Part shown: one piece after another, positions 15,742-53,325 of the stretch
Position numbering within the stretch: the stretch's first letter is position 1
Layout of the letters: each line of letters starts with the position of its first letter
Assembly (NCBI RefSeq): GCF_036669915.1
Contig: NC_089312.1
Coordinates: forward strand, 17,986,317 to 18,050,316
Reading direction: 5' to 3'
Length of the DNA stretch: 64,000 nt
Origin: Pocillopora verrucosa
Lineage: Eukaryota > Cnidaria > Anthozoa > Scleractinia > Pocilloporidae
Program-made: the position numbers and the translations under genes
The notes under the pieces: generated by a model
The model's input: the letters and a program-made list of their open reading frames with translations, nothing else
Told to the model about the DNA's origin: nothing
Databases searched by the model: none

Positions 15742-18700
15742 TTAAAAATGTTCTGACATCATGAGCACCACGAGAGAGGACCACCCTGTGAAAGGATGAG
15801 ACCCCTTCCCATGACCTGTCCCGTCGTCGTACTGTTCCCATATGAACCCTGACCTCTCGTACTCCCTGAACATATTTTTGATTAGATTTTGTCGTAAATC
15901 TGTGTAAATTGCTTTAGCTGTGCCCTGGTAAGGCCCCGGGATGCTAGCGTAGTGGTTCAAGGCCCTCACGGCCAGGAAGTTGATGTTGATCCATATGGCT
16001 CCTCTCCAGTAAGGAGCATCGTGTTCAGTGTTGTGCTTCTTGTAGACGGGGTCGCTCTTGGACAAGGACCGTATACCGTACTTACCCCACAGCTTCTCTG
16101 GGTCTCTTAACTGAGTGAGAACTTTTTCAAGTTTGGGTGAAGTGGGATCTAGGATCTGAAGCAGAAATGGAAACAAGCTGACGTAACCAACTGCGTTCAC
16201 GTACCTAAGAGAAGGACCCTGCTTTGATGTAACGATGCGAACAGTCTTTTTGGGCGAACCGGGTTGATTCGGATACATAACACGCTGAACAAGCTTCACA
16301 AACTTGGTATGATTGCCAAAATCGCTATACGTCTCCGCCTTTGAAGACCAATGATACTCGTCCAACAGCCTGTTGTCCGACAGATACTGGCTCGTTGATT
16401 TGTACAAGCCGGCATCTGACTTCTCACCCACAGCCTCAGCGATGTCAGCCATCAGTCCTGCAGCAAATGCCATCCAGCAACGTAGATCAACGTGCCTTTC
16501 ATCGTCTGACGGGTGCGACGCACGGGGATAATCATCCAACCCGGAGGTAAGCGTCTTAGGATTCAACTCTCTGTCTGTCTTAGCATCCCTCCCGTGCCAC
16601 CTGTATGTAGATGGTTGATTTCCTAACTGTGTAGTGTTGAACCAATTAAACCACGCCTTCAGGCGAGGAAAAATCTTCCGCAAGTATTCTTCATCCAACA
16701 CGCCCTTATCCACCATCGATTTGATAGGCAGGATCAAAGTGGGTGGGTTTGCGTTTTCGTTGTGCTGTACGACGAAATCTGAAGGTACTTTCGTTCGGGC
16801 TTCGTCGCCGAGAATCTGCTCCCTAGGAATCCAACCTTCAATGTTGATCAAATCCAGCCAATGGCCGATGATATCTTTGCTTATATCCGAGTCCCACTGA
16901 CTGATTAGTAGTTGGTGGAAGCCTTCATCCCAGAGGAAACCTCGTGGAAAGAAAGGACGCGACGGAACTGCGGTGTACAAAGCGCTTTCCCAGTAATCTT
17001 TCGGTTCCTTAAAGAACCGAGAAATCACTTTTGAGCTTCCATAGAAATAACCAATGCCTCCAATCATGTTACTTAGCCCGGCCTGCGCAAATTTAACCTC
17101 ATCGTCATTAAACCCTTTAGCCTTCAACGAAAACTTTTCTTCAAATTTTTTGTCAAATTCGGCGCTGTATTTATCTCTAAGATTCGTGAAAGCAGCCCCT
17201 ATCAGGCTTTTCTCCCTGGTTGAGGAACTTTCAGACTCGAACACAAACTCCACGTCGAAAGGAAGTTCGAGAATCCATTGCTGGACAAATAGGTTCACTG
17301 GTAACTCACGCCCATTCTGGTCACGTTTAGCCACGTGACCCGCTAAGGCAAGCAGCTGCATATTCTTGCCATCTTTCATTTTTTCCCCACGCATGTTCTG
17401 CATCACTATTTCCTTGACCGAATGCACGTGCGGCGTGTGTGTAATTAAGAACGACGACAACAAGACTTTAGAGGGGCGTGGAAAATATAGCTTAAAAGAG
17501 CCGAGTTCAGGCGTGTAACCGCGCAGCGCTGTAAGTGTGTTCTTGTGGACAACTGGCTGCAGTTGGGCTTCTCCTTCGTAAGTGACATAGAAAAGTAACG
17601 AAACCATCTGCCTGGGGTTTCCCTAAAAAACGAATCGGACGCAAAAATAACAAATGAATAAACATATTTCAAAGTGTTAAACGATTTAGAGTCATTTGAA
17701 ATTTCGATTAAGTATCTACGATGAAATACTGCATTTAAATTGTTTACGTTTTCAATTTCACCTCAACCTGACAGTTAAATCTAAGATAAAATATTAAACA
17801 AAAAATCAAGTCTGTGAATGAGACTGGTGAAAAGTAACTTAAGGTTGAAAAACTATCTCTCTTGTCAGCAATTAAGCAAAGGTCAGAAAGGAAAAATCAG
17901 TGCATCTCTTTGAAGTTTGATTTTGGACACATTTCAAAAATGCTGATTATTAGCTCATGCTTGTTGTGTCATTAAGTGACCGTGAGAATCAGGGTATGAC
18001 TAAATGGGGCAAAAAAACACCAACCGTTCTCTTTCCTGAAATTCTTGCAGTCCAGTCTCCACCATGATCTCCACCCAACCTTTTCACAAAGTCTGTATTC
18101 AACTCAAAATCTTTGTCAACTATTTGCTGAGAACCAAAGTTGGTGCCATCGTGTTTAAGCCAACCATACTTGGGAAGCCCGTCAGACTGCTCACAAGTGT
18201 GACGAATGGTTACTTGACCATCAGGTGAAAGCTGAGGGAACCACATTAAACCTGTCATGAGGGACTTAGGACTCCTTGTTCTGTGGACAATAGAAAAAGA
18301 TTTGTAATTGAGCAAGTTCAATCCACACAAAATCTTCTGGAAGGTGGCCAGCTAAATTAAAAAAAAATAGCATGCGTCTTCATTTTCTGCCATAATTATA
18401 CATTCTATGTAGGGTTATGGAGATGAAAGAGGTAATCCTATATTTGATATTCCCTCACAAAGAAGAAGATCTGGTGGTCTAGTTTGATCCAGTAATAATG
18501 GTCTCAAAATCATTCTCCAGAAGACCAGTTTAAGATGAACTCACATTATTGCAGTAAATGTAAAAATGATTTTTTCTACAGTTAGGCCCAATTCCTAACT
18601 CTATCAATGTATCTCTTTGAGGTGGTTGAAAATGGTTTTGTTACCTTAAATTATCAATTCCTCAATGGAAAGTAACTTCAACACCTTTTACATTGATTCA

Positions 18701-37089: not shown

Positions 37090-40000
37090 TTAACAACGAC
37101 TCCACCTATCAGACTGATCGTAAGAGGGTGACCATGGAAACTGAACCGGCAAGAATGCAGTAGGGTGTACAGCGGGTAACCATGACAACTGATAGGGAAC
37201 GGTAACGTTGACAGGAACAAAAGGCGCTGCAAATTGTGGAATACCGTTCACCATGGACACTCCTGGAAAGTCAGTCATGATACTATTCCACATAACTTGA
37301 CTCTTTATATCAGCGATTTGAAATCTGTGGGTGACAAAAAGCTTTCCAGTGAGCCATCTCACAGCTTCTGTCTCAAAGTGAGAGTAAGTTGAAGGCTTGT
37401 AACAAGAAAATGACTTTTTTACTCGCTGCAAATGTTATTCATTTACAAAGTTATTTTTAGCACTTAGCCCCATTTTGAAATTGAGGGTATCTAGAACTCG
37501 GAAGTTATTTTTAATACTTTAGTTTATAAAATCTGAGTCGTATAGGACTTATGCGCGGAGGCTGACATCGACAAAGTCGTTTAGCCAGTTAGAACAAGCA
37601 GGCAGATTTTTCAACTAATCAGGATAAACCTCGAACTTAGTCAAGAGTTGAATGAGGAGGGTAAGTTTCTTAGGAAACTGTCGTGCGGTTATTTGGTATT
37701 ATCAACTGAGTTGATAGCGTAAATTGGCCACCGTTAAGAGTTTCAAAGCGGACGTTTCGAGTGCTAGCCCTTCGTCAGAGCGAATGGAGAATGTCCCCCT
37801 GCACTCTGACGAAGTGCTCACGCTTGAATGTCAGCTTTAACACTCTTAACGGTATAGACTAAACCAATTTACGTTATCTACGATTCAGTTGAGAGTACCA
37901 AATTACCTTGCTAGTCAAGAGTTGCTTCTTCAGCGCTGTTACGACTGTATGACATGTTTTCTTGTCGCTTTTCCTACTTGTTTTGTCTTCTTCTAAATTC
38001 ACATTAAAAAAACTGTTGGGTTATTTCCTGTTGCTAAACCTACGCCACATATTTCAATGTTTAGTATATACTAAAACGGCAGATAGCGTGTAAGGCGCGC
38101 TCTGATTGGCTACTCCGTATATCCTTTGATATTCGCCTCCAAGCAACTCTCACGGAATTTGCGCCCGAAAATTTTGCAGGAATAGATGAGTTAAAATTAT
38201 CCTTTTGTGCTATATTATCTCACTTCTTTAGTATATACTGACGCAACGATTCACCTCAGTGTGACGGCGGCTAGGGGTGGATGTTTACCTCGCCGCTTTG
38301 TCAAAAACTAGCCACCTTCACTTCGGTGAATAGTTCTAATTATTACATTTTCAGATGGAATGTGCGATGTGTTTCATTGCACCAATACAACCGACTTTTT
38401 GGACAACAAAAGTTACAGCCAACATCGTTGCGATTGCTTGATACCTTTGAGGTTGTTTCTGCCCTTGAGCTGCGTTGAGAGATAAAGCAGATGCGCTTCT
38501 CCCTGATATGGCGACGTCTTTTCTCGTTTTCTGTAGTGTTTTTCTCTGCCAAAGATTCTTCTTCTTCTTTTTGGGATATTTTAATAAGTGGCGGTTTCGG
38601 AGACGTCTTCGGGCGTTGGCAAACCAGGTCTTTAGCTTAAACGAAAATAACAGAAACGGTTCCAAAGTTTTCTTGATTCTTTCGATTATATTTGTTTTCA
38701 CCGAAAGTGTTTCAAATCGCTTGTTTGGGTTTAGGCAATTCGAGGATAGTTTCATTATGTCACCGAGGGAGAAAGGCCGATGTTGTATCAATTGGCGTGC
38801 CCAGGGATAGGTCACGGCTTGAACATCGAACAAATTTAAATTTAATGAATTTCTGAAAAAAAATTATTCAAGTTCATTGTTTGCCCCAAGCTTTAATCTT
38901 CTCCATCCTTAGCTATCCTTGTTTCTTCTTGTTTTTTATGTTAATTATTTTTTGTTTCTATCTACTGGGAGGGCTTGAAAACTAGCCTCAGGAGCGCGAG
39001 TTTTTTAGGGTGTCTGTGGCCATTCTCCCCCAGAAAATATTGTAATTGCGATCTCGGAGGATAATCTGTGGTGAATTGGGTTTTTTTTCGTATAGTTCTC
39101 TTTCATTCGTCATACGTACTTCATGCTAAACAAAAATATTGATATTAAATCTGTACGGCTCCGCTGCCCTAATAAGGAAGTCACGTAACACATCCGTTGA
39201 CATGCCTAATGGGAAGTACACTAATAGTGACGTAGCCCTTTTAAGTTTTCTAGGGAAACCTAAACGCAGAGTCCTTTCTGATGTTATGGAATTTTCAATT
39301 CTCTGATCAATGTTTTTCTTTCTCTTTTTTACCCTGATACTCTACCTGAGCTAAAGTAATTCCGTGCTGCTCGGCTAACATAAGTTTCTCAGTTGAGTCA
39401 GGGTAGGGATTCCTGATGCGTTGCATGAGCCACGCCTGTAGTGCTTTATAGGTTTCTCTGGGAATTCCTTTCTTCTTGCGAAAACCTGAAGGGCAGATGC
39501 TCCGCGGAGGTGGGAACCTGTGGATAACAAGTAAATTAAGGATTTCTAAACCTCGACCTGTCCGTTAGCCGTAAGCTGGCGCGTGGTAAGGGTACATGCT
39601 GTAATTGTCCAGTTTGAGTGTGGGGTGGGGGCACTTACAAGCATTTCACTGTCAACTGAGTAGGAGGGGAGAGGAGGGGAGGGAGGGGGGGGGGGAGGAA
39701 GTGAGAGAAGGCAGGTTGTTTTTATGGTATGAAAAGCGGGTAAAACGCATACCAAGATCTCCTTCAGTGTCCCTTTGATTATTATAACGGAATTCATGAT
39801 ACAGGCGAACCTCTCCTTAACTGCCACCTTGGAAATTGTGAGGGCGGCCGCTGCAGAGGACTGGCATTTGTAGGGTGGAAGGGGACGTAATGCAACAGTT
39901 TTTGTATCTATTATTGAATGGGTAGAACATCTTTATTCATATCTAATGGTTGTCGTCCAAATTAAATGGACGTTTCCGTTGTGAAGAGATAACCGTTCTA

Positions 40001-42476
40001 AGAGTACCCACCACCAGGAAAGAAAAAAAGTAATTACTGTGGCTTGCCGGGTTAGGTTCTGGCACTATAGCTTCATGGACAAGCTACATATGTCCTGCTT
40101 TTGCTTCTCCGTACATGATGCAAGTTTTTCACAGTATCATAGAACAGTCTATCTGCTATTCGATCTGTTAAGTTCATCAGATTCAAGTTAAGGGAAAACA
40201 TCCCGTGTACCACACGAACAAAGGAAGTGCTTTACTGTAAGACTATGGCATGTTAATTATTATAATCCATCAAGTTCTTTGCCCGTCTACGATTGGTCTA
40301 AACTCACCACCTGATCGAAGGTGCTTCTGCTATACTCGTAACCCGCCTAGGTGGGGTCACCCGCCTGTCCATATAATTTCTTATTTTATTTTGATCAGGT
40401 TTACATGATGGGTGGGGTGACCCGCCTTGGCGGGTCGCCTAGTCTGCCAGGTAGGGTAACCCTGTCAGCCGGGGTGACAATTTGCCATGTAAACGTTCAA
40501 GGTGGGGTAACCCGCCTAGACGGGGTCGCATTCATGGCAAAAAGCTCAAAAGCGAAACATGTATTTTTAAATCTTTGTACATTTCCTAGCCGTCTCCTGG
40601 CAGAAATCACCACAAACCGCAACGGACACACAAGGAGTGTAAAATGTTCACATTTCAGAATATTTAGCGTTGTAAATCGACCATATTTGGTTTCCCAAAC
40701 TATTCTGTAGAACGTATTAAATCAATAGTTCCTTGCGAAACCAAACACCGCGTAACACAACGCGTGACGCTTTCATGAATAAATACATATGTGTTCGAGA
40801 ATTAATCTTTCGTGTTTCTCGAGATGTGAGCTTGGGACGCCTCTGCTCAAACTCCTTAAATGCAACCGCAACAACAACCTCAAGAAACCTCACTCCAGCA
40901 CCCCGGGGTTGTAAGATTGCATGTAAACGCGTTTTATTTTTCGACCACAGCTAAGCGGGTTACCTCACCTAGCTGGGGTCCCCCACCTCCATGTAAACAG
41001 GCCCTAAGTAATAAATTGATAATCCTAAATTATCAAACCTTGCGTCGACTACGATAAAGAATTCGTTGAAAATTTAGTTCAAGATGAAACCTTGTTTAGC
41101 TATTGTTACTGTATAAATGATATGTTTGTTTGTTCATAAAGCCGTATCAGAGAACAATACAAAGTAAACATCCCACGCGCAAAAAAAAAAAAAAAAAAGA
41201 AGCAAATTAATTGTAAAAATTTTACCTGCGCGTTGCAAAAATATTATGAGGTTAATAGACACAGTAGCTTCCATTTGGCGCGAAAATATGCACGGATATT
41301 TGTTCAAAGACATTATCTGTTCCGAGATGCAAACAATTTTCCGAGAGCGAAGCTCGAGGGACACTGTGAGCTTCGAGCTATTGTCGACATATCGGCTGAT
41401 ATAAACGCAAATTACTCAGGTAAAATGATAAATCAAGAAGATAATCCGAAAATTAGTTACTGCAAATAAAAATGACAAATCAAGTGTACAGTACTCTAAC
41501 TTTTCTTCACTTCCTTGTCGAGAAGTATTACAGACGGTATAAAAATTGGACCTTTGGCTGATGAATACACCATTTATATTTTACTATGCTCGTCCTCATT
41601 TACGCTTCCATTTTTTTAAGTAATTCGATTCCTTTAGGGTTAATCTATATCTCGATCAAAGCTGTGCGACATACCTTGGAGACGGAAAGATTCCGCGCCG
41701 ATGTATATCACTTCTAAACTGAAATTCACACACGACTATTTCCTTTTTTTCTTAAAGATATGATAGAAACGAAGTAAAATCCTTAACGGCCTTATCAAAG
41801 TCTATATGTAAATAGAGAATATGAAGAAACCTATCAAATGTGAAAAACCCCCATCAGTCACTTTCCAGAATCTTTTAGAGTATCTCTCAAATAAATCAAA
41901 CTCTAGTATCATTATCGCTTTTTCTTTTGAACTCGAAGATGTACCGTGAAGGTCGCACTTCAATTTTATTACTTGGTGCCTTCAACAAGCTGAGACCAAT
42001 AAACTAAATTGTCAAACAAACCTTTGTCGCACGCGAAATCTTTGGACTGCAGTTCTCGCTTTTGCTTGATAAACATGAGCTTCGTCCCATATTTCAATAA
42101 GATCGTCGCCTTGAGAGAATGTCCCTTCCTGGATATGAACAAATTCCAAGCAGAAATTAGAACGCGAAACTAACAACTTACAACTGCTGCAAGATACAAA
42201 AAAAAAACGCAGCGTACCACATCAAAGCGAAAATGTAAACAATTACGGTCCAACTACCTCTATGAGCTTATACACCGCTTGGATGTCTTTTCTATGCCAG
42301 GCTAGGGCAATTTTTGCCCGAATAATCTCTTCATTCTCCTGATATTCTGGACTGTTAGCTAGACGAAGCAGCAAATTTTCGACTTCAGCATATTTTTTAC
42401 AATGAACAAGACGCTTAGCTCGCGTGCTCCAGTATGTTAAATTATCACGATTGGTTAATTCGAATAATGGCTTCAT
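37090..42476 (-). CDS. SIX-domain protein with a TALE-type homeodomain (divergent homeobox gene)
   Basis: Exons 42258-42476, 42022-42128, 39346-39517, 38445-38635 and 37090-37324 join in phase to 307 residues. Residues ~10-121 resemble the SIX (sine oculis) domain: RAKIALAWHRKDIQAVYKLI, DLIEIWDEAHVYQAKA, and FRVRQRFPPPRSI, the last spanning the exon 2/3 junction and matching the SIX-class YRVRRKFPLPRTI. Residues ~122-184 form a homeodomain with LQAWLMQRIRNPYP, three residues longer than SIX proteins between helices 1 and 2 (the TALE insertion). The recognition helix is KTWFANARRRL, as in Iroquois/Mohawk. N51 is kept; position 50 is A, not the K of SIX proteins. A KKKKK stretch follows. The tail is proline- and aromatic-rich. 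Start: the ATG at 42476, with an in-frame stop just upstream. The last splice is phase-consistent but less certain; without it the frame ends at 38351. Predicted nuclear DNA-binding factor. Confidence 0.82.
37690..37915. repeat. Foldback repeat with TATCAACTGAGTTGAT ends, copy 2
   Basis: TATCAACTGAGTTGATAGCG, AAATTGGCCACCGTTAAGAG and CTAGCCCTTCGTCAGAGCGA are followed by the inverse order TCTGACGAAG, CACTCTTAACGGTATAGAC and TTTACGTTATCTACGATTCA. The arms pair over roughly 90 bases. It is in the last intron of the homeobox gene. Confidence 0.8.
38058..38245. repeat. Element bounded by TTTAGTATATACT inverted words
   Basis: TGTTTAGTATATACTAAAAC near 38058 and CTTTAGTATATACTGACGCA near 38228 bracket a segment with CGCGCTCTGATTGGCTACTC. 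The bounding word is itself nearly palindromic. No coding potential. Confidence 0.5.
39655..39705 (+). other. G-rich tract, quadruplex-capable
   Basis: Runs GGGG, GGGG, GGG and a run of eleven or more G within about 45 bases, in the second intron of the homeobox gene (39518-42021), about 140 bases upstream of its homeodomain exon on the gene strand. The G-rich strand is the non-template one relative to the + strand; on the transcript it is C-rich. Confidence 0.7.
40335..41010. repeat. Repeat cluster of GGTGGGGTNACCCGCC words
   Basis: Imperfect palindromic words such as GGTGGGGTCACCCGCC, GGTGGGGTGACCCGCC and GGTGGGGTAACCCGCC recur at 40335-40535. A complementary end, GCGGGTTACCTCACCTAGC followed by CATGTAAACAGGCCC, lies at 40957-41007. 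CATGTAAAC also occurs at about 40489, suggesting repeat ends. It lies inside the second intron of the homeobox gene. Confidence 0.6.
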
Positions 42477-43856: not shown

Positions 43857-46800
43857 TTAGGCTATTTTCTTGCTCGTCCTGAATACTAAGGACGCACCTG
43901 TGAAGAGCCTAGCCAGACCGAATATTGGAAGCAAGAATATAATAAAGGCCATCATGATAACAAAATGGCTGATACTTGTCCCAATGTCTAGCCAACTACC
44001 GCTATCCTGCACAAGGTAAAAGAAATGCAGTCCCATTAAATCCGTCATCACTAGCACTACCAACACTAGACTTTGAACTGGGATCGAGAGCACCACGTGT
44101 ATTGCGTCGAATGCACATGCTACAATCACAAACGGAATAAGCACTTTACAGAGCAGTAAACTTCCCATAACGAAGGGCGAGAATACAGTCAGGAAGCAAT
44201 AAACGGACGCGGGATCAAAGCTGTTTATACTAGCAATGTTTCCTGTTCCAAAGAAGGCCACTACGATAAAGAACACGAAGAAATAAGCGCAGCGAAGGTC
44301 CTCTAGAGTGAGTTTTCTCATTACAGGGGTGTCCATGCCTCTTGTAAGCGCTTTCCAAGCTGGCTGATGAGTGCTCGTGGAGCTGTCGTTACTTAGTTGA
44401 GTTTCTAACAGCGCGTCAAGGGTTTTGCCAGAAAGTTTGTGCTCAGACAAAAGCCATGCACCCATTAGCAGCGAGAGGACTAACAAAAACAGGCCTTCAT
44501 AGGCAGTACTCATCAATATATATAATGAGGAAAACGCTATAGCTATACTCGACAATCGGACCGTTAAATTACTCGAGTTGATCAGAGGTAACAGAAAAGA
44601 CGATATAAGAATAGTCCAACTCCCAAGTTGGTTTACTAATGGGAGTCCGAGTTTTTGTTGTAGACTCGCTGCTGTACTGTTCACGATATAAATTGCTAAT
44701 CCCGTGAGAAGTGCTTGAGGGAGCAGGATTTTACACGATTTTGTTAATTCTGTCCTAAGTGAGTAAGACACACTGGAAACGTAAAACAACAGAGACGAGA
44801 AAATGATTAAAGTTAAGAATCCTGCCGCAGTCACCAAGAAATAGTTGGCTTCACGTCCGACAACAGGAAGAACAGGAAACACGGAGAGAGCGAAGTTGAG
44901 GATCAGCCAACCTGCTACAGATAGCCTGCAAGTTCTGTACAATTGAGTGGTGAAAGGCCACAGAGCAAGACAGATGAGACCAACAGAGAGAATCTCTCGC
45001 TTGAAGAAGCTCATGACTAGAATCTCTAACGAGAAACAACCGAACATGAAGGTAAACAGAACTCTATGCTGCAACTGTTTTGCACGGATATAGCTCCAAG
45101 CCGCTTTGACCACGTGAAGTCTCTTGGCAATGCGGTTCCAAAACACCAAGGGCAATAAGCAGTAGCTGTAATACATCCAAGGCGCTTTTTGAATAAACAA
45201 AAGAATTAGCGCGAGAAAAGCGAGGACCAAAGTTGCGGTGTTTAAAGGCACCGTCTCCACCATTGGCTGGACACTCCCTTTATCGAGTTTGGACGCCTCT
45301 TTGATGACTTCGCTATGATCTTCGACAATCTGTAGGATGATGCACGATATCCATCCCAAAAATCCAAGAGTAACCACTAAATTTAAGAAAACCCTGTCGT
45401 AGTTCTGGTAGTAATTGAGTCCTTCTAATGCAAGATTGATTAGACCTCTGCTTAGGCTCTCGGCTTCTTTATACTTCTTGGCTCGCATGAACTCTTTTAT
45501 GTCACGAATCATTCCTGTTTTCTTTGCACCTATATGACAAAAACAACAAACGAAAAACATCTCAATTTCCAATCGGTATTTGTAGAAGAACCAGTATAGT
45601 AGTCACACAGAGGGAGAGTAGGGAGGGAGGGGGAATGGGGCTAGGGGTTTGGGATTTCTGAGAGGGCCGATTGAGAGTGTGGGGTGTATCATCATATTAT
45701 TTATTATGAAATGTTTCTTACTTTTTAAAATAAGTCCTCTAACATTGTTGCTGATCTGGTACAGACGAAGGGCTAACTCTTGAAAGGTCAGCCTAGAAAC
45801 TCTTTGAGGTGGCAAATTTACATTATCAACTCAGTGCTCAAAACTAAATTTTCTTGTTATACCCTCCACCGATGCAGCATCATAGTTTCTTTGGAAACTT
45901 ACCCCCTTTTCGTTTTGTTGGGGCCTCCTTTCATGTTGGCACTAAGAAAATAACAACCCCCTACAGTATAAACTAAAAGGATTATACCTGCCAAGGAAGA
46001 GAAGGGCCGAAACCAGAGAGAAGTTTCCTTTCTGAACAATTCTTTCACATCATATTGAGCAAGAATCTGCTGTGAATTCATGAAGAGGTTTTCTGCAAGG
46101 TATTGCTCAGAGTTGTTGAGATAGTCCAATGGTAAAATTCCCACAGAGTTCAGAGGAAATGGAACACCTGATCAGAAAATAAACTGTGTTATCTGCTGCG
46201 GGATAATAGGCAAGTTATTGACAGAGACAAAAATAATGGTAAATGAAAGCTCAGCAGAGGAACAACCCCAATATACAGCCATTTTGACTGAAAAAAGTAG
46301 GTAGATGAAGGATTTATCCCGTCGCAAAATTAGGATAACTTGCAATGATCATACTGTGCAAAAAGCTTACTTCATGCTGTGTTTTTATTTACTTGTTGAG
46401 TCAATGGAAAACAAGAAAATGAAATTATTCTTTTATAAAAAAAGAGCTGTTTAAGCTGATGGATGTTGTTAAATACAAACCCACCAATCAGAGAAGTCAT
46501 CAGTGGTGCAATATCAGCTTGATTGACATCTATTCTTTTCAGATGACCAAGATTCCACTTGATTGTCTCCTCGGCAATATCAACACCTTGTGCAGGAGCC
46601 ATTGGTCCTTGTACACCAGCTCCCCAAGCTACTAAGGGAGTCAGTGTTTCGTGAGGATGTCCTGCCCCATGGGACCCCCAGTTAGTCATCCCATGATCAG
46701 CTGTCAACACAAATGCTGTTCGATGATCATGACCATAAAATTCTTCAATTAAATTTTCCATGTCTTTTATCCCTTTGTCCACAACAGCAATATTCCTAAG

Positions 46801-49800
46801 ATACTCTTGGGAGGTTGGTCTGTGTGCATGGCCATTGGTGTCAATTCCTGAAAGCAATCACAAAAGTCAAACAATACTTATACTGATAAAATGTAGGTAG
46901 ACTTGATTTGATATAGCATTTTTCACAAAACTATGCTGCTCCTAAAGGTGGGTAAATTCATTAATTACCAAAAATATGAAATGGCAATGCCTAAGAACCC
47001 TCTGAATCATGAAGTGGTTATCATCTAGTGTTAAGTGTACAATTTTAAAATCCAGTGACACTCCAAGCTGTCTTCATTAGTTTTTAAACAAAATATTTGA
47101 TTCATGAAAGTTTAAGTGTTGGTACACATAAGGAAGAAAGAAAGATAAATGACTATTTGTGCAGTTTCCCAGTCATAATCCTGATGAATACTTCAAGACA
47201 ATTTATCTTGTTATACTCCCTACCAATGCAGAACCACAGTTTCTTTAGAAACTTGCCCCCTTTATTTCTATAAATACTACACTTGAGAAAGCACCATACC
47301 ACTAATGGGTCTTCAAAGGTCTTGAAAGAAACATTGTGTGAAACTACTTTACAACTAATTAATCACAAAAACAAAACAAAACAAAACAAAAAAAAAAAAA
47401 ACAAAACACAAAAAAAACCAGATACTTTGTATCTTACAGGTAAGAAGTGCAGGAGCAGTGAACAATGCCACATCTTTAAGAAACCTAGTGGTATTTATGG
47501 AAAGCACTTACCTAGAAGGTGAAAGAAAAAAACAATTTTCTCTTCATGAAGCATCCTCTTCAAAGTTTCATTATTCATTGAAGCACTAAAGAACTTTCTT
47601 ACTTCATTAAACACCCAAGTATCAAGCTTAGCAGCATCCTCATTTGCAAAGTCTTCTGCAACATCTTCATACATGGATGTAAAAACATGGTTTCCACTGG
47701 CTCCCTTGGCAAACATTGGCAGGATATCAGGGCTTCCCCAAGACCATGTGTATCTGCTTTCATTAAAGGTAGAATCAAACTCCACTGGGTTCTCTTTCCA
47801 ACCTAGAAAAAGGAAGCAACATATAGTGTGGTGAGTAATCCATAGCAGTAAAAATAGAATTGTAATTTGGGAGAGGCCTTAACTCTTTGACTCCCTAAGA
47901 GTGACTAGCTTCTAATTCTCCTTGCAACATCACTTCTGAATAAAGGAAATTATCACCAAATAAAGAAGCTCTTGATTGTCAAACAAATCCTCCTTCTCTG
48001 CACCTTAGGAAACACTACAGACCTTTGGGCGTAAAGGGTTAACTACTGTTTAAATCAATGGCATCATCTGGGATAATATTATCCCTACTGATGCCATCGA
48101 TTTGTCAAAACTCAGATTTTTAATGTTTGATTCAAACAGTATGGTTTTAGGCCTCCATCCAAATCTCTTTAATATGCTGAAAATAATTTTTTTTTAAATC
48201 ATTTGAAGAGTTTTGATAGTGACATCCATCAAAATCAAAGTAACTCTAGCCAACCTCTAGCCTGCATGGCTGGTATATACATGTAAAGGGGAGAGAAGGG
48301 GTAAACTAGGCCTTCTACAACCACAATCTCAACATCAGTTCTCCCTACTGTCTGTCTTCCATTATCCATACATGATCCAGCAAACAGGTAGTGAGAATAC
48401 ACAAACTTATCATGTTAAAGTTGCTGCCTTGTCTAACACCAAATTCTTATACCTAATTTACAAGGAAATTTGTAGTAGCTAGAGGGGAGAATTAATAATC
48501 AGATCTTAGGATTTAAAGGATTGCACAGAAATATCAATGCTCCCCACTGAAAAATTCAATATATTGTTAAGTGTTTGCTTAATATCAAGTGTAAAGTTCT
48601 GTCCATCATAAATTTACTGTAATTTCTGGTTATTTACCTACACAGCTGATTACCTGTATAGGTTAATTTTTGCAACAATGAGAAAAAATTTCAACAGATT
48701 TCGGGCCACACTGGCAGATAACCCGCACCCAAAAATAAAAGAAAATTGTCAACTCACACAAAGTTCCTCCATTGCTTTTGTTGACATGATATCCTTGAGC
48801 ATGCAATTAATAAATTTTCACACTTCTTGCTTTCAATGTTTCATTAAGAATGATACCAGTTGTAAAAATCTGCTCTCAAAAGAAATCGATATCTCAAGAT
48901 CTATGAGTTGAAGAAATCGCTTGAATTGTTTTTTAAACCAAACAAAGAAACAAGCTGAGAAATTGACAAGGTAAGTAAGTAAGAGTACAAACAAGATAAA
49001 AGCTTTTGTTATTGAGTTTTGAAGATATCTTTTAAAAAAGTCTTAAAAGTCTCTGAGCAATCTGTGCAAAATAAATGAGTTATTGCACAGGTCTTTTGAT
49101 GGGTATCTTTAGTGGATCTTATTATCATCTCTGTTTCTTCTGGCTTATAGTTTAAAAAACTATACAGGAAGCTTTAAAAATTAGTGTATTACCTGCACCT
49201 TCCTATAACCTGCACCAACAACTGTTTGTGGAAAAATTAACAGATTACCAGTGTGAAATCAACCAGAAATTACAGTAATACTGGAATTTATGCTATTTTT
49301 ATTATACAAGTAAAGAGAAAGTCCATCTCCATATTCTTACAATTGCAGCTCATTTATATTATCATCATCCTAAAGCAAACCTGTAAGCTCAGTAACTTGC
49401 ATAGATTCTGAATTTATTTCATTGCTTTCAATAATTTTGGAAAGAAAAAGTCTCTTATAATACCGAGCAATCTGTGCAAAATAAATGAGTTATTGCACAG
49501 GTCTTTTGATGGGTATCTTTAGTGGATCTTATTATCATCTCTGTTTCTTCTGGCTTATAGTTTAAAAACTATACAGGAAGCTTTAAAAATTAGTGTATTA
49601 CTTGCACCTTCCTATAACCTGTACTAACAACTGTTTGTGGAAAAATTAACAGATTACCAGCATTAAATCAACCAGAAATTGCGGTAAAACTGGAATTAAC
49701 GCTATTTTTATTATACAAGTAAATAGAAAGTCCATCTCCATATTCTTATAATTGCAGCTCATTTATATTATCATCCTAAAGCAAACCTATAAGCTCAGTA

Positions 49801-50840: not shown

Positions 50841-51372
50841 GTTGGTTTAGGTACATACGTGGCTTATCATACACCACGTAGCCACCCACGCCAATCGAGA
50901 TGAGGAGGGAGGCTGGAGCGAGAGAAAAAATTGGGAGAAATTCGGCAGAAAAGAGTCCTTTGATTTTTACTCATATTCATACAATCCATAACTCCACCTT
51001 AATGGGAAATAAGCAAAGTTCTTCTCTCACGGCTAAAGCAAACCATGTGCGCTCGTTCGCTCGCTCGCGCAGGAACTGAAACGGAGACCGAAAACGGAAT
51101 GACTTTAGCATCGTCGAGTGCTTTGTTAAAATAAGAAAATTATCCCGACCACTGATTGTTAATTAACCAAAAACAAAATAAATTTATTTGGCTGTTATCC
51201 AAAAAATGATGTAAGCAAAATGATTTATTTATTTTAGGAAACTTATGCACGGTTTTTTCGGATCAGTGATATAAATCGGAGATCGTTTTGTGACGAGGTT
51301 CAAATTTTGTCGATACTGAAAAAAACTCGGCAATAACTAAGACTTGAAAAAAATCATCAGAAGCTAGAGAAG
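50841..51372. promoter_or_regulatory. Divergent promoter region, PIGN (-) / HSP70 (+)
   Basis: 532 bases separate the start codons. TATAAA at 51271-51276, about 97 bases upstream of the HSP70 start, is a good core promoter candidate for that gene. GAA words cluster at 51070-51100 (GAACTGAAACGG, GACCGAAAACGGAATG), but I found no canonical alternating GAAnnTTCnnGAA heat-shock element. A repeated CTCGCTCG stretch lies near 51055-51070. Confidence 0.5.
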
Positions 51373-53325
51373 ATGTCAGACGAGTTGGCTCTCCCGATTG
51401 GTATCGACCTTGGAACAACTTACTCCTGCGTTGGAGTATTTCAACACGGTAAAGTTGAGATTATCGCCAACGATCAAGGAAACCGAACGACCCCGAGCTA
51501 TGTCGCCTTCAATGAAACGGAGCGCTTGATAGGAGATGCAGCCAAGAATCAAGCAACTCTTAACCCAAACAATACAATCTTTGATGCCAAGAGACTTATT
51601 GGTAGGAAATTCAACGACCCCCTGGTTCAATCCGACAGAAAAAATTGGCCCTTCGAAGTAGTCAGCGAGAATGGGAAACCCAAAATCCGCGTGCAGTATA
51701 AAGGCGCGGCGAAAAATTTTACGCCGGAAGAAATCAGTGCCATGGTCCTAACCAAGATGAAAGAGATAGCCGAAGCTTACCTGGGCCAGACCATTCATGA
51801 TGCTGTTGTCACAGTACCAGCATACTTCAACGATTCACAGCGACAGGCCACCAAAGATGCTGGAACAATAGCAGGGCTGAATGTCAAGAGAATCATTAAT
51901 GAGCCCACTGCCGCCGCCCTCGCGTACGGTTTGGAGAAAAACCTCAGCGGCGAAAAGAACGTGTTGATTTTCGACCTTGGTGGAGGGACCTTTGACGTCT
52001 CTGTGCTAACTATCGACGAAGGTTCCTTCTTCCAGGTTCTCTCCACAGCTGGCAACACACATCTTGGTGGAGAAGATTTCGACAACCGCATGGTGGACTA
52101 TTTTGTGTCAGATTTCAAGCAGAAAAACAAGAAGGATCTCAAGACCAACCCGAAATCCTTGCGTCGCCTGAGGACCGCATGCGAAAGAGCCAAGAAAACT
52201 CTGTCGTCTGCAACCCAAGCTAATATAGAGATCGATTCACTGTTCGAGGGAATTGATTTCTACTCCAGAATAACCCGTGCCAAATTTGAAGAGCTCTGTA
52301 TGGATCTGTTCCGCTCATGCCTCGACCCAGTGGAAACTGCCCTTAAAGATGCGAAGCTTAACAAACGCAAAGTGCATGACGTGGTTCTCGTTGGAGGATC
52401 TACAAGAATCCCAAAGATTCAGAGTCTGTTAGAAGAATTCTTCGAAGGAAAACAGCTGAACAAATCAATCAACCCTGACGAGGCCGTGGCGTATGGTGCC
52501 GCTATCCAGGCAGCGGTCTTGTCCGGAAACAGAAGTTCCGAACTCAAGGATATCCTGCTGCTCGACGTTGCACCCTTAAGTCTCGGGATTGAAACCGCCG
52601 GTGGGGTAATGACCACTATAGTTCAACGCAATACAAAGATTCCAGCGCAAGTTTCTAAGGAAGAGTTCTCAACTTACTCAGACAATCAAACAGCCGTTAC
52701 CATCCAGGTGTTTGAAGGAGAGCGTGCCTTCACCAAAGACAACAATCTACTGGGACGATTTGATCTGAAAGGAATCCCCCCTGCACCACGAGGTGTGCCC
52801 AGGATCGAGGTCTCCTTCGATGTTGATGCCGACGGGATCTTAACTGTTTCCGCCAAGGATCAGAGCACTGGGAATAGCAACAACATCACTATCACCAACG
52901 ACAAGGGAAGGCTGTCCAAAACGGACATCGATCGCATGGTGGCTGAAGCGGAGCAGTACAAGGAAGAAGACGAGAAGAAACGCGACAAGGTAAATGCAAA
53001 AAACAACCTGGAGGGCTATGCGCACCAAGTCAAACAAGCTGTAGAAGATCCGAAAAATGATCACAAGCTTGATCCTGAAGATAAGAAGATGGCGAAGAAC
53101 AAGGCACAAGAAGTGATTGCTTGGTTGCAACGCAATCAAGAAGCTGAAAAAGAGGAGTATGAAGAAAAGCAAAGAGATCTACAGCAAGTGTGTTCACCAG
53201 TCATGTCCAAGGTACAAGGACAGGAGACCCCGGAACAAGGGCGGGAAAACAGCTACTGCGGTGGACCTTCGGGTGCAAGGCCAACCCCCAATAGATACAG
53301 TTCTATAGTCGAGGAAATTGATTGA
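51373..53325 (+). CDS. Cytosolic-type HSP70, intronless, C-terminal EEID
   Basis: A single uninterrupted 650-codon frame encodes a full HSP70. The nucleotide-binding domain (about 1-390) has IDLGTTYS at 11-18, [12 protein letters not shown] at 199-210 and [13 protein letters not shown] at 338-350. The linker DILLLDVAP is at 393-401, followed by the substrate-binding beta domain and the helical lid. No signal peptide or KDEL is present, so it is cytosolic or nuclear. The absence of introns is typical of stress-inducible HSP70s. Two features are odd. The tail lacks GGMP repeats and is instead rich in Q, E, P and G. The last four residues are EEID, where cytosolic HSP70s normally end EEVD, the peptide read by TPR co-chaperones such as HOP and CHIP. 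Codon choice is more GC-rich than in neighbours. Confidence 0.95.

Follow-up and report, generated by a model that had tools for sequence, protein, structure and literature searches.

A gene on the minus strand of the stretch of Pocillopora verrucosa DNA that we analyzed (64,000 nucleotides, hereafter the window) likely encodes a SIX-TALE hybrid transcription factor of the csSix-X type, in which an old fusion would have attached an Iroquois-like TALE homeodomain to a SIX domain and its linker, on their C-terminal side. csSix-X, from the hydrozoan Craspedacusta sowerbyi (JF819724), is a RACE-sequenced transcript that combines a SIX domain with a WFAN homeodomain (PMC3340352). The first-pass annotation had stated that no family with this architecture was described, but csSix-X and a relative from Nematostella (XP_001633591.1) were both reported as SIX-Iroquois hybrids in PLoS One in 2012 (PMC3340352), so the architecture was already in print for a hydrozoan and an anthozoan. 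The architecture extends beyond this one gene, both to these published genes and to a paralogue in the coral's own genome. The window gene and its paralogue are thus a new pair in a little-known and neglected hybrid family, and the architecture itself is not new. What we add is two paralogues in one genome with their exon map, the extension of the homeodomain loop, a homeodomain intron placed as in PBX, and a first SIX-domain helix without detectable conservation.

Exon map and domains of the window gene

The minus-strand exons within 42476..37090 join in frame, with GT/AG splice sites, to give a predicted protein of 307 residues. The features are:

42258..42476, minus strand: exon 1, with an ATG at 42476 (the exact start is predicted); N-terminal part of the SIX domain, including a divergent helix 1 region; ends in ...VYKLIE, phase 0
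42022..42128, minus strand: exon 2, C-terminal part of the SIX domain, with IWDEAHVYQAKA and, at its end, RFRVRQ; phase 2 donor
39518..42021, minus strand: intron 2, 2504 bases, which separates the SIX-domain exons from the homeodomain exons
40338..41000, no strand assigned: interspersed element of about 660 bases, high-copy, inside intron 2
39346..39517, minus strand: exon 3, which completes the SIX signature (RFPPPR) and continues with the CPSG linker, the basic arm, and helices 1-2 of the homeodomain, whose loop has three extra residues; last residue Q44, phase 0
38445..38635, minus strand: exon 4, homeodomain helix 3 (LKTWFANARRRLR) and a basic tail with KKKNLWQR; phase 2 donor
37090..37324, minus strand: exon 5 (predicted), C-terminus, with the stop at 37090

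Support is good for exons 1-3 and the beginning of exon 4; exon 5 and the exact start position are predicted. (Exon 5 resembles the fifth exon of the paralogue weakly.) The first-pass annotation had described the exons at 42258-42476 and 42022-42128, their phase-2 join to 39346-39517, which gives RFRVRQRFPPPRSI, and a further exon from 38635, and we found all of these as described, with GT/AG sites. Placing the end of exon 4 at 38445 and exon 5 at 37324-37090 also reproduces its 307-residue translation.

We then compared the protein to domain models. The Pfam query was a version of 260 residues that extends exon 4 to its own stop and leaves the SIX domain and the homeodomain unchanged. Residues 22-114 match SIX1_SD (E = 1.9e-13; positions 12-113 of the 113 in the profile), and residues 138-177 match Homeobox_KN with E = 1.5e-14, versus 2.3e-6 for the general Homeodomain model. 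With these scores, the three extra loop residues, and lysine and alanine at homeodomain positions 5 and 50 (K5, A50), the proposed combination of a SIX domain with a TALE-type, Iroquois-like homeodomain stands. When the first 193 residues were compared to the PDB, the best match was SIX1 (4egc, 4.4e-17), and the TALE homeodomains of PKNOX1, TGIF, and MEIS came next. A search of NCBIfam gave nothing relevant.

Two introns contain repetitive sequence. The intron 2 element has GGTGGGGTNACCCGCC-type repeats in both orientations. We scored 40 of its 1239 candidate copies, and the other near-full-length copies were 89 to 93% identical. In intron 4, at 37730-37853, there is an imperfect inverted repeat with ACCGTTAAGAGTTTCAAAGC-type arms, which is possibly the end of a mobile element.

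A second hybrid gene in the genome

We searched the genome (353 Mb in 52 contigs, with the window on C1) for SIX domains, and eight SIX1_SD matches had an E-value of 1 or less. Four are canonical SIX genes on C13, with E-values of 6.4e-42 or better. Two are pieces of genes: one in exon 1 of the window gene (0.189) and one on C3 (0.0028) that adjoins one of the genome's 15 Homeobox_KN matches. Two weak matches, on C9 (an internal stop, and no SIX-like open frame by eye) and on C14 (two stops) were dropped. The piece on C3 belongs to the paralogue:

C3:10629449-10631869: paralogue, 3' end not reached; SIX1_SD 9.9e-13 and Homeobox_KN 6.9e-14 (Pfam)

The paralogue has the same domain order as the window gene, with the SIX domain followed by the homeodomain. 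Three introns lie at identical aligned sites in both hybrids, in phases 0, 2, and 0. A fourth has phase 2 in both, at a site that is not alignable (exon 4 has 191 bases in the window gene and 101 in the paralogue). In both genes an intron interrupts the SIX signature, R(V/I)R(Q/E)RFxPP, and splicing restores it in frame, with identical phase, which agrees with the earlier claim that it is spliced across the exon junction. Both proteins also share a linker motif, RFxPP(R/K)(S/N)ICP(S/N)G, and a motif after the homeodomain, K(K/S)K(N/H)LW(Q/N)R (KKKNLWQR in the basic tail of the window gene versus KSKHLWNR in the paralogue). Across 152 aligned codons (window residues 45-200), 70 residues are identical. 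The differences at codon positions 1, 2, and 3 number 76, 48, and 105, and 42 of the 70 identical residues are encoded by different codons, as expected of coding sequence under selection. Because a second gene has the same two domains and aligned introns, the joining of the exons is unlikely to be an artefact. Very probably, the window gene is a real protein-coding gene that was correctly read.

With the homeodomain of the paralogue as the query, we obtained 23 matches in the genome with an E-value of 1 or less. Four of them come from exons of the hybrids, four are the canonical SIX genes, and five are exons of Irx, TGIF, MEIS, PKNOX, and PBX, which together with the four SIX genes are what we recognized in the genome besides the hybrids. 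No third hybrid copy was recognized among these 13; the remaining ten matches are weak (E 0.065 to 0.86).

The four canonical SIX genes (L016-L019) span about 102 kb at C13:7096811-7198807, and each has its SIX domain and homeodomain in one open frame. The fourth (L004/L019) is divergent, with the tetrapeptide ETTY. Near the paralogue, a frame with FG repeats (L009:6464-6760) looks nucleoporin-like by eye.

Class of the homeodomain and state of the SIX domain

A match to Homeobox_KN is not diagnostic of a TALE homeodomain, because canonical SIX proteins match this model too, and we rejected it as proof. The two canonical SIX proteins that we scanned (of the genome's four) have Homeobox_KN scores of 53.5 and 44.9 bits, versus 54.6 and 51.8 bits for Homeodomain. 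The class was therefore judged by other tests. The classes can be told apart by the score gap of the two Pfam models, by the loop, and by residues at positions that include 5, 50, and 54. The gap (Homeobox_KN minus Homeodomain) is 26 and 21 bits for the hybrids and 35.5 for Irx, and it is -1 and -7 for the two SIX proteins. In the loop, the window gene has the three extra residues of TALE homeodomains and the paralogue has two.

As class-diagnostic positions, we took the 16 positions outside the loop at which SIX and TALE rows have no residue in common (the sets are small, with 5 rows for SIX and 9 for TALE, and two of the rows were entered by hand). Each hybrid has a TALE residue at 10 of these positions, a SIX residue at 1, and neither at 5. 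In leave-one-out controls, TALE rows had 9-15 TALE residues and SIX rows had 12-15 SIX residues. If the loop columns are included, then the counts for TALE, SIX, and neither are 11/1/7 and 10/2/7 of 19 for the two hybrids. Both hybrids have A50 and K5, as in TALE homeodomains (A, G, or I at position 50; R or K at position 5). A SIX/SO homeodomain has 60 residues, K50, and no basic residue at position 5 (PMC4901127). The hybrids depart from this pattern, with A50, R3 and K5, and the extra loop residues.

By plain identity, the window homeodomain is nearest to the genome's Irx (30/58), followed by human IRX1 (29), MKX (26), and PKNOX1 (23). It has 17-21 of 55 residues in common with SIX rows and 19-22/58 or 21/53 with PBX, TGIF, or MEIS rows, so on these counts it is about equally close to SIX and to PBX/TGIF/MEIS, with Irx as the exception. 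The homeodomain of the paralogue is nearest to MEIS (30/52), and then to Irx and PKNOX1 (27/57). The two hybrid homeodomains are identical to each other at 28 of 57 positions.

The position of the homeodomain intron is another character. In the hybrids it lies between residues 44 and 45, and the frame of the genome's PBX exon ends there too. The SIX, Irx, and TGIF homeodomains are unbroken in this genome, and in MEIS and PKNOX the frame runs to W48. An intron at this homeodomain site has been published for the PBX genes of ctenophores, cnidarians, and humans (PMC2959044). Nevertheless, the hybrids do not fit the PBC class, which has G50 besides an intron between homeodomain codons 47 and 48 of 63: the site is common to both, but residue 50 of the hybrids is alanine. 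The IRO motif is absent from the window gene (the best ungapped match is 4/14). The tetrapeptides of the SIX subclasses (ETSY, ETVY, QKTH) are absent from both hybrids, given that the 3' end of the paralogue is incomplete, and the tetrapeptides here are RKKK and RKKA.

We also built homeodomain trees, as the first-pass annotation had proposed. In these trees SIX stands apart from TALE plus the hybrids (support 98/97 with 16 rows and 99/98 with 14 rows), but the exclusion of the hybrids from SIX is marginal. If both hybrids are constrained to group with SIX, then the p-AU is 0.05 (16 rows) or 0.038 (14 rows); with a single hybrid at a time, it is 0.052 and 0.092. These homeodomain sequences place the hybrids on the TALE side, where a grouping with SIX seems marginally, and not firmly, rejected. 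Within TALE the groupings are tentative: with 16 rows, the hybrids lie beside Irx and MKX (78/81, unstarred). Without the paralogue, the window gene groups with IRX (84/84). The paralogue groups with IRX as well (80/76), and its grouping with MEIS/PKNOX is not rejected (p = 0.175). The two hybrids are unpaired in the homeodomain tree, and their pairing is not rejected (p = 0.378).

The SIX domain of the hybrids is best conserved in its second half. The residues that are invariant among all four canonical SIX proteins are retained at 0/6, 4/16, and 16/36 along the domain in the window gene and at 0, 5, and 11 in the paralogue, with the caveats that the alignment of the first helix is weak and that the row for the paralogue is trimmed at its N-terminus. 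In SIX1 numbering, we take the equivalent of R110 to be kept and the equivalent of W122 to be a cysteine. The SIX1 substitution V17E, in the first helix of the SIX domain, abolishes EYA binding (PMC8293042). Since a change in this helix stops EYA binding, and since none of the six invariant residues are kept there, the EYA-contacting face has probably been lost in the hybrids. The earlier suggestion of a retained Eya-type surface is not supported, insofar as the weak alignment of helix 1 can be read.

Origin, relatives, and genomic surroundings

The first-pass annotation had left the choice between a hybrid and a convergent SIX protein. We favor fusion over convergence on the basis of these sequence comparisons, but fusion is not proved. 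Under convergence, a SIX-class gene's own homeodomain would have gained a loop insertion and TALE-like residues. The two SIX proteins that match Homeobox_KN are compatible with this, as are the plain identities, which are no lower to SIX than to several TALE rows, and the range of p-AU values for a hybrids-with-SIX clade (0.038 to 0.092). Also, one SIX protein, unc-39 from C. elegans, has one extra loop residue (PMC4901127), and csSix-X grouped with SIX in a published tree of the N-terminus, SIX domain, and homeodomain (PMC3340352), although that grouping may reflect the SIX domain. But convergence needs parallel change in the loop and, in both genes, at positions 3, 5, 9, 10, 11, 20, 50, and 54, and the intron at 44/45, at the PBX site, is absent from the four canonical SIX genes. 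We consider convergence unlikely.

A different history is that the hybrids are a relic. An early animal would have had a gene with a SIX domain and a TALE homeodomain; the SIX class would have arisen from it by losing three loop residues and gaining K50, and cnidarians would have kept and duplicated the original. The nearly equal scores of two SIX proteins on the TALE-type and general models fit this account, and the csSix-X study offered two origins, a fusion of Irx and Six or an atypical ancestor from which both descend (PMC3340352). However, it predicts that the hybrids lie between SIX and all TALE, which is the grouping that was marginally rejected, and the hybrids instead sit beside Irx and MKX. 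We consider a relic quite improbable. We have very little belief in a misjoining of neighbors, with exons 1-2 from a degenerate SIX gene and exons 3-5 from a separate TALE gene. It is true that the hybrid is known here from genome sequence alone and that the 2504-base intron 2 holds a mobile element. But the intron-split signature is restored in both paralogues, and the csSix-X cDNA has both parts (PMC3340352). Furthermore, no canonical SIX homeodomain turned up in the window in a tblastn search with the homeodomains from three of the four canonical SIX genes, and exon 3 is the window's sole Homeobox_KN match among the matches listed.

If an ancient fusion did place an Iroquois-like TALE homeodomain after a SIX domain and its linker, then what might the protein do? 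Residues 47, 50, 51, 54, and 55 govern the target of a homeodomain. The window gene and the genome's Irx have the same residues at these positions (T, A, N, R, R), which suggests that the homeodomain would read an Iroquois-like target. The basic arm, which SIX proteins lack, would reach into the minor groove. The SIX domain would serve for docking to other proteins. Its EYA-contacting first helix would be lost or rebuilt, so that a partner other than EYA, or a different way of binding EYA, is probable. Homeobox classes are defined by a type of homeodomain paired with a partner domain. A group that breaks this pairing suggests that the SIX domain and the homeodomain are exchangeable, and the hybrids are a natural experiment in which part sets the target and which part sets the partner. 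Because two copies on long contigs give an exon map, their origin can be tested by comparative genomics, and their function could be tested in Nematostella.

How do these genes compare to known ones? Like the window gene, csSix-X and XP_001633591.1 have a SIX domain and then a WFAN homeodomain, with no ETSY, ETVY, or QKTH and no IRO motif (PMC3340352). They differ in having the tetrapeptides RRTN and QKST instead of RKKK and RKKA (this comparison is by description only). Expression of csSix-X was seen in the gonads and around the mouth opening (PMC3340352). The main text of that study uses none of the words insertion, three amino acid, loop, or intron. The hybrids resemble the SIX/SO class (SIX1/2, 3/6, 4/5) in the SIX domain and the FPLPR-type linker, but differ from it in A50 instead of K50, the basic arm, the loop extension, IC in place of IWDG, and the exon structure. 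The window gene resembles IRO and MKX proteins in its homeodomain (nearest to Irx), A50, and NARRRL, but it differs from them in lacking the IRO motif and in having a SIX domain upstream and an intron within the homeodomain.

Our literature search, which left most subscription journals outside its reach, found one report of the hybrid, with two sequences (PMC3340352). Nematostella also has two genes of uncertain class, NVHD007 and NVHD045, with 189-base homeoboxes and an intron at the PBX position (PMC1779571); the first is elsewhere named NvIrx (PMC3531958). They are like the hybrids in this intron, as compared by description, and could be the Nematostella members of the family, but this is only a lead. 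A 2020 table of cnidarian homeobox genes has 4 SINE and 5 TALE genes for Acropora digitifera, all in known families, and 6 SINE and 6 TALE genes for Nematostella, with 5 of each assigned in the family rows; the available parts of the table have no row for hybrids (PMC7642931). Among viral contigs, there was no hybrid in 55 pattern matches. Among prokaryotic contigs, one of 158 pattern matches was confirmed (L024), and we rejected it as an out-of-frame chance match inside a bacterial frame.

The window also contains other genes. Upstream of the hybrid gene and on the same strand are a PIG-N exon (43857-45602; PF04987, 4.7e-130) and a phosphodiesterase-like exon (46372-46857), which probably belong to one gene. 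HSP70 is encoded on the plus strand at 51337-53325, in a single reading frame of 662 residues, and a 626-residue exon of Glycoside hydrolase family 63 lies on the minus strand at 15742-17622. Finally, an exon at 60768-61718 matches beta-N-acetylglucosaminidase (NAGidase) and is presumably from O-GlcNAcase.
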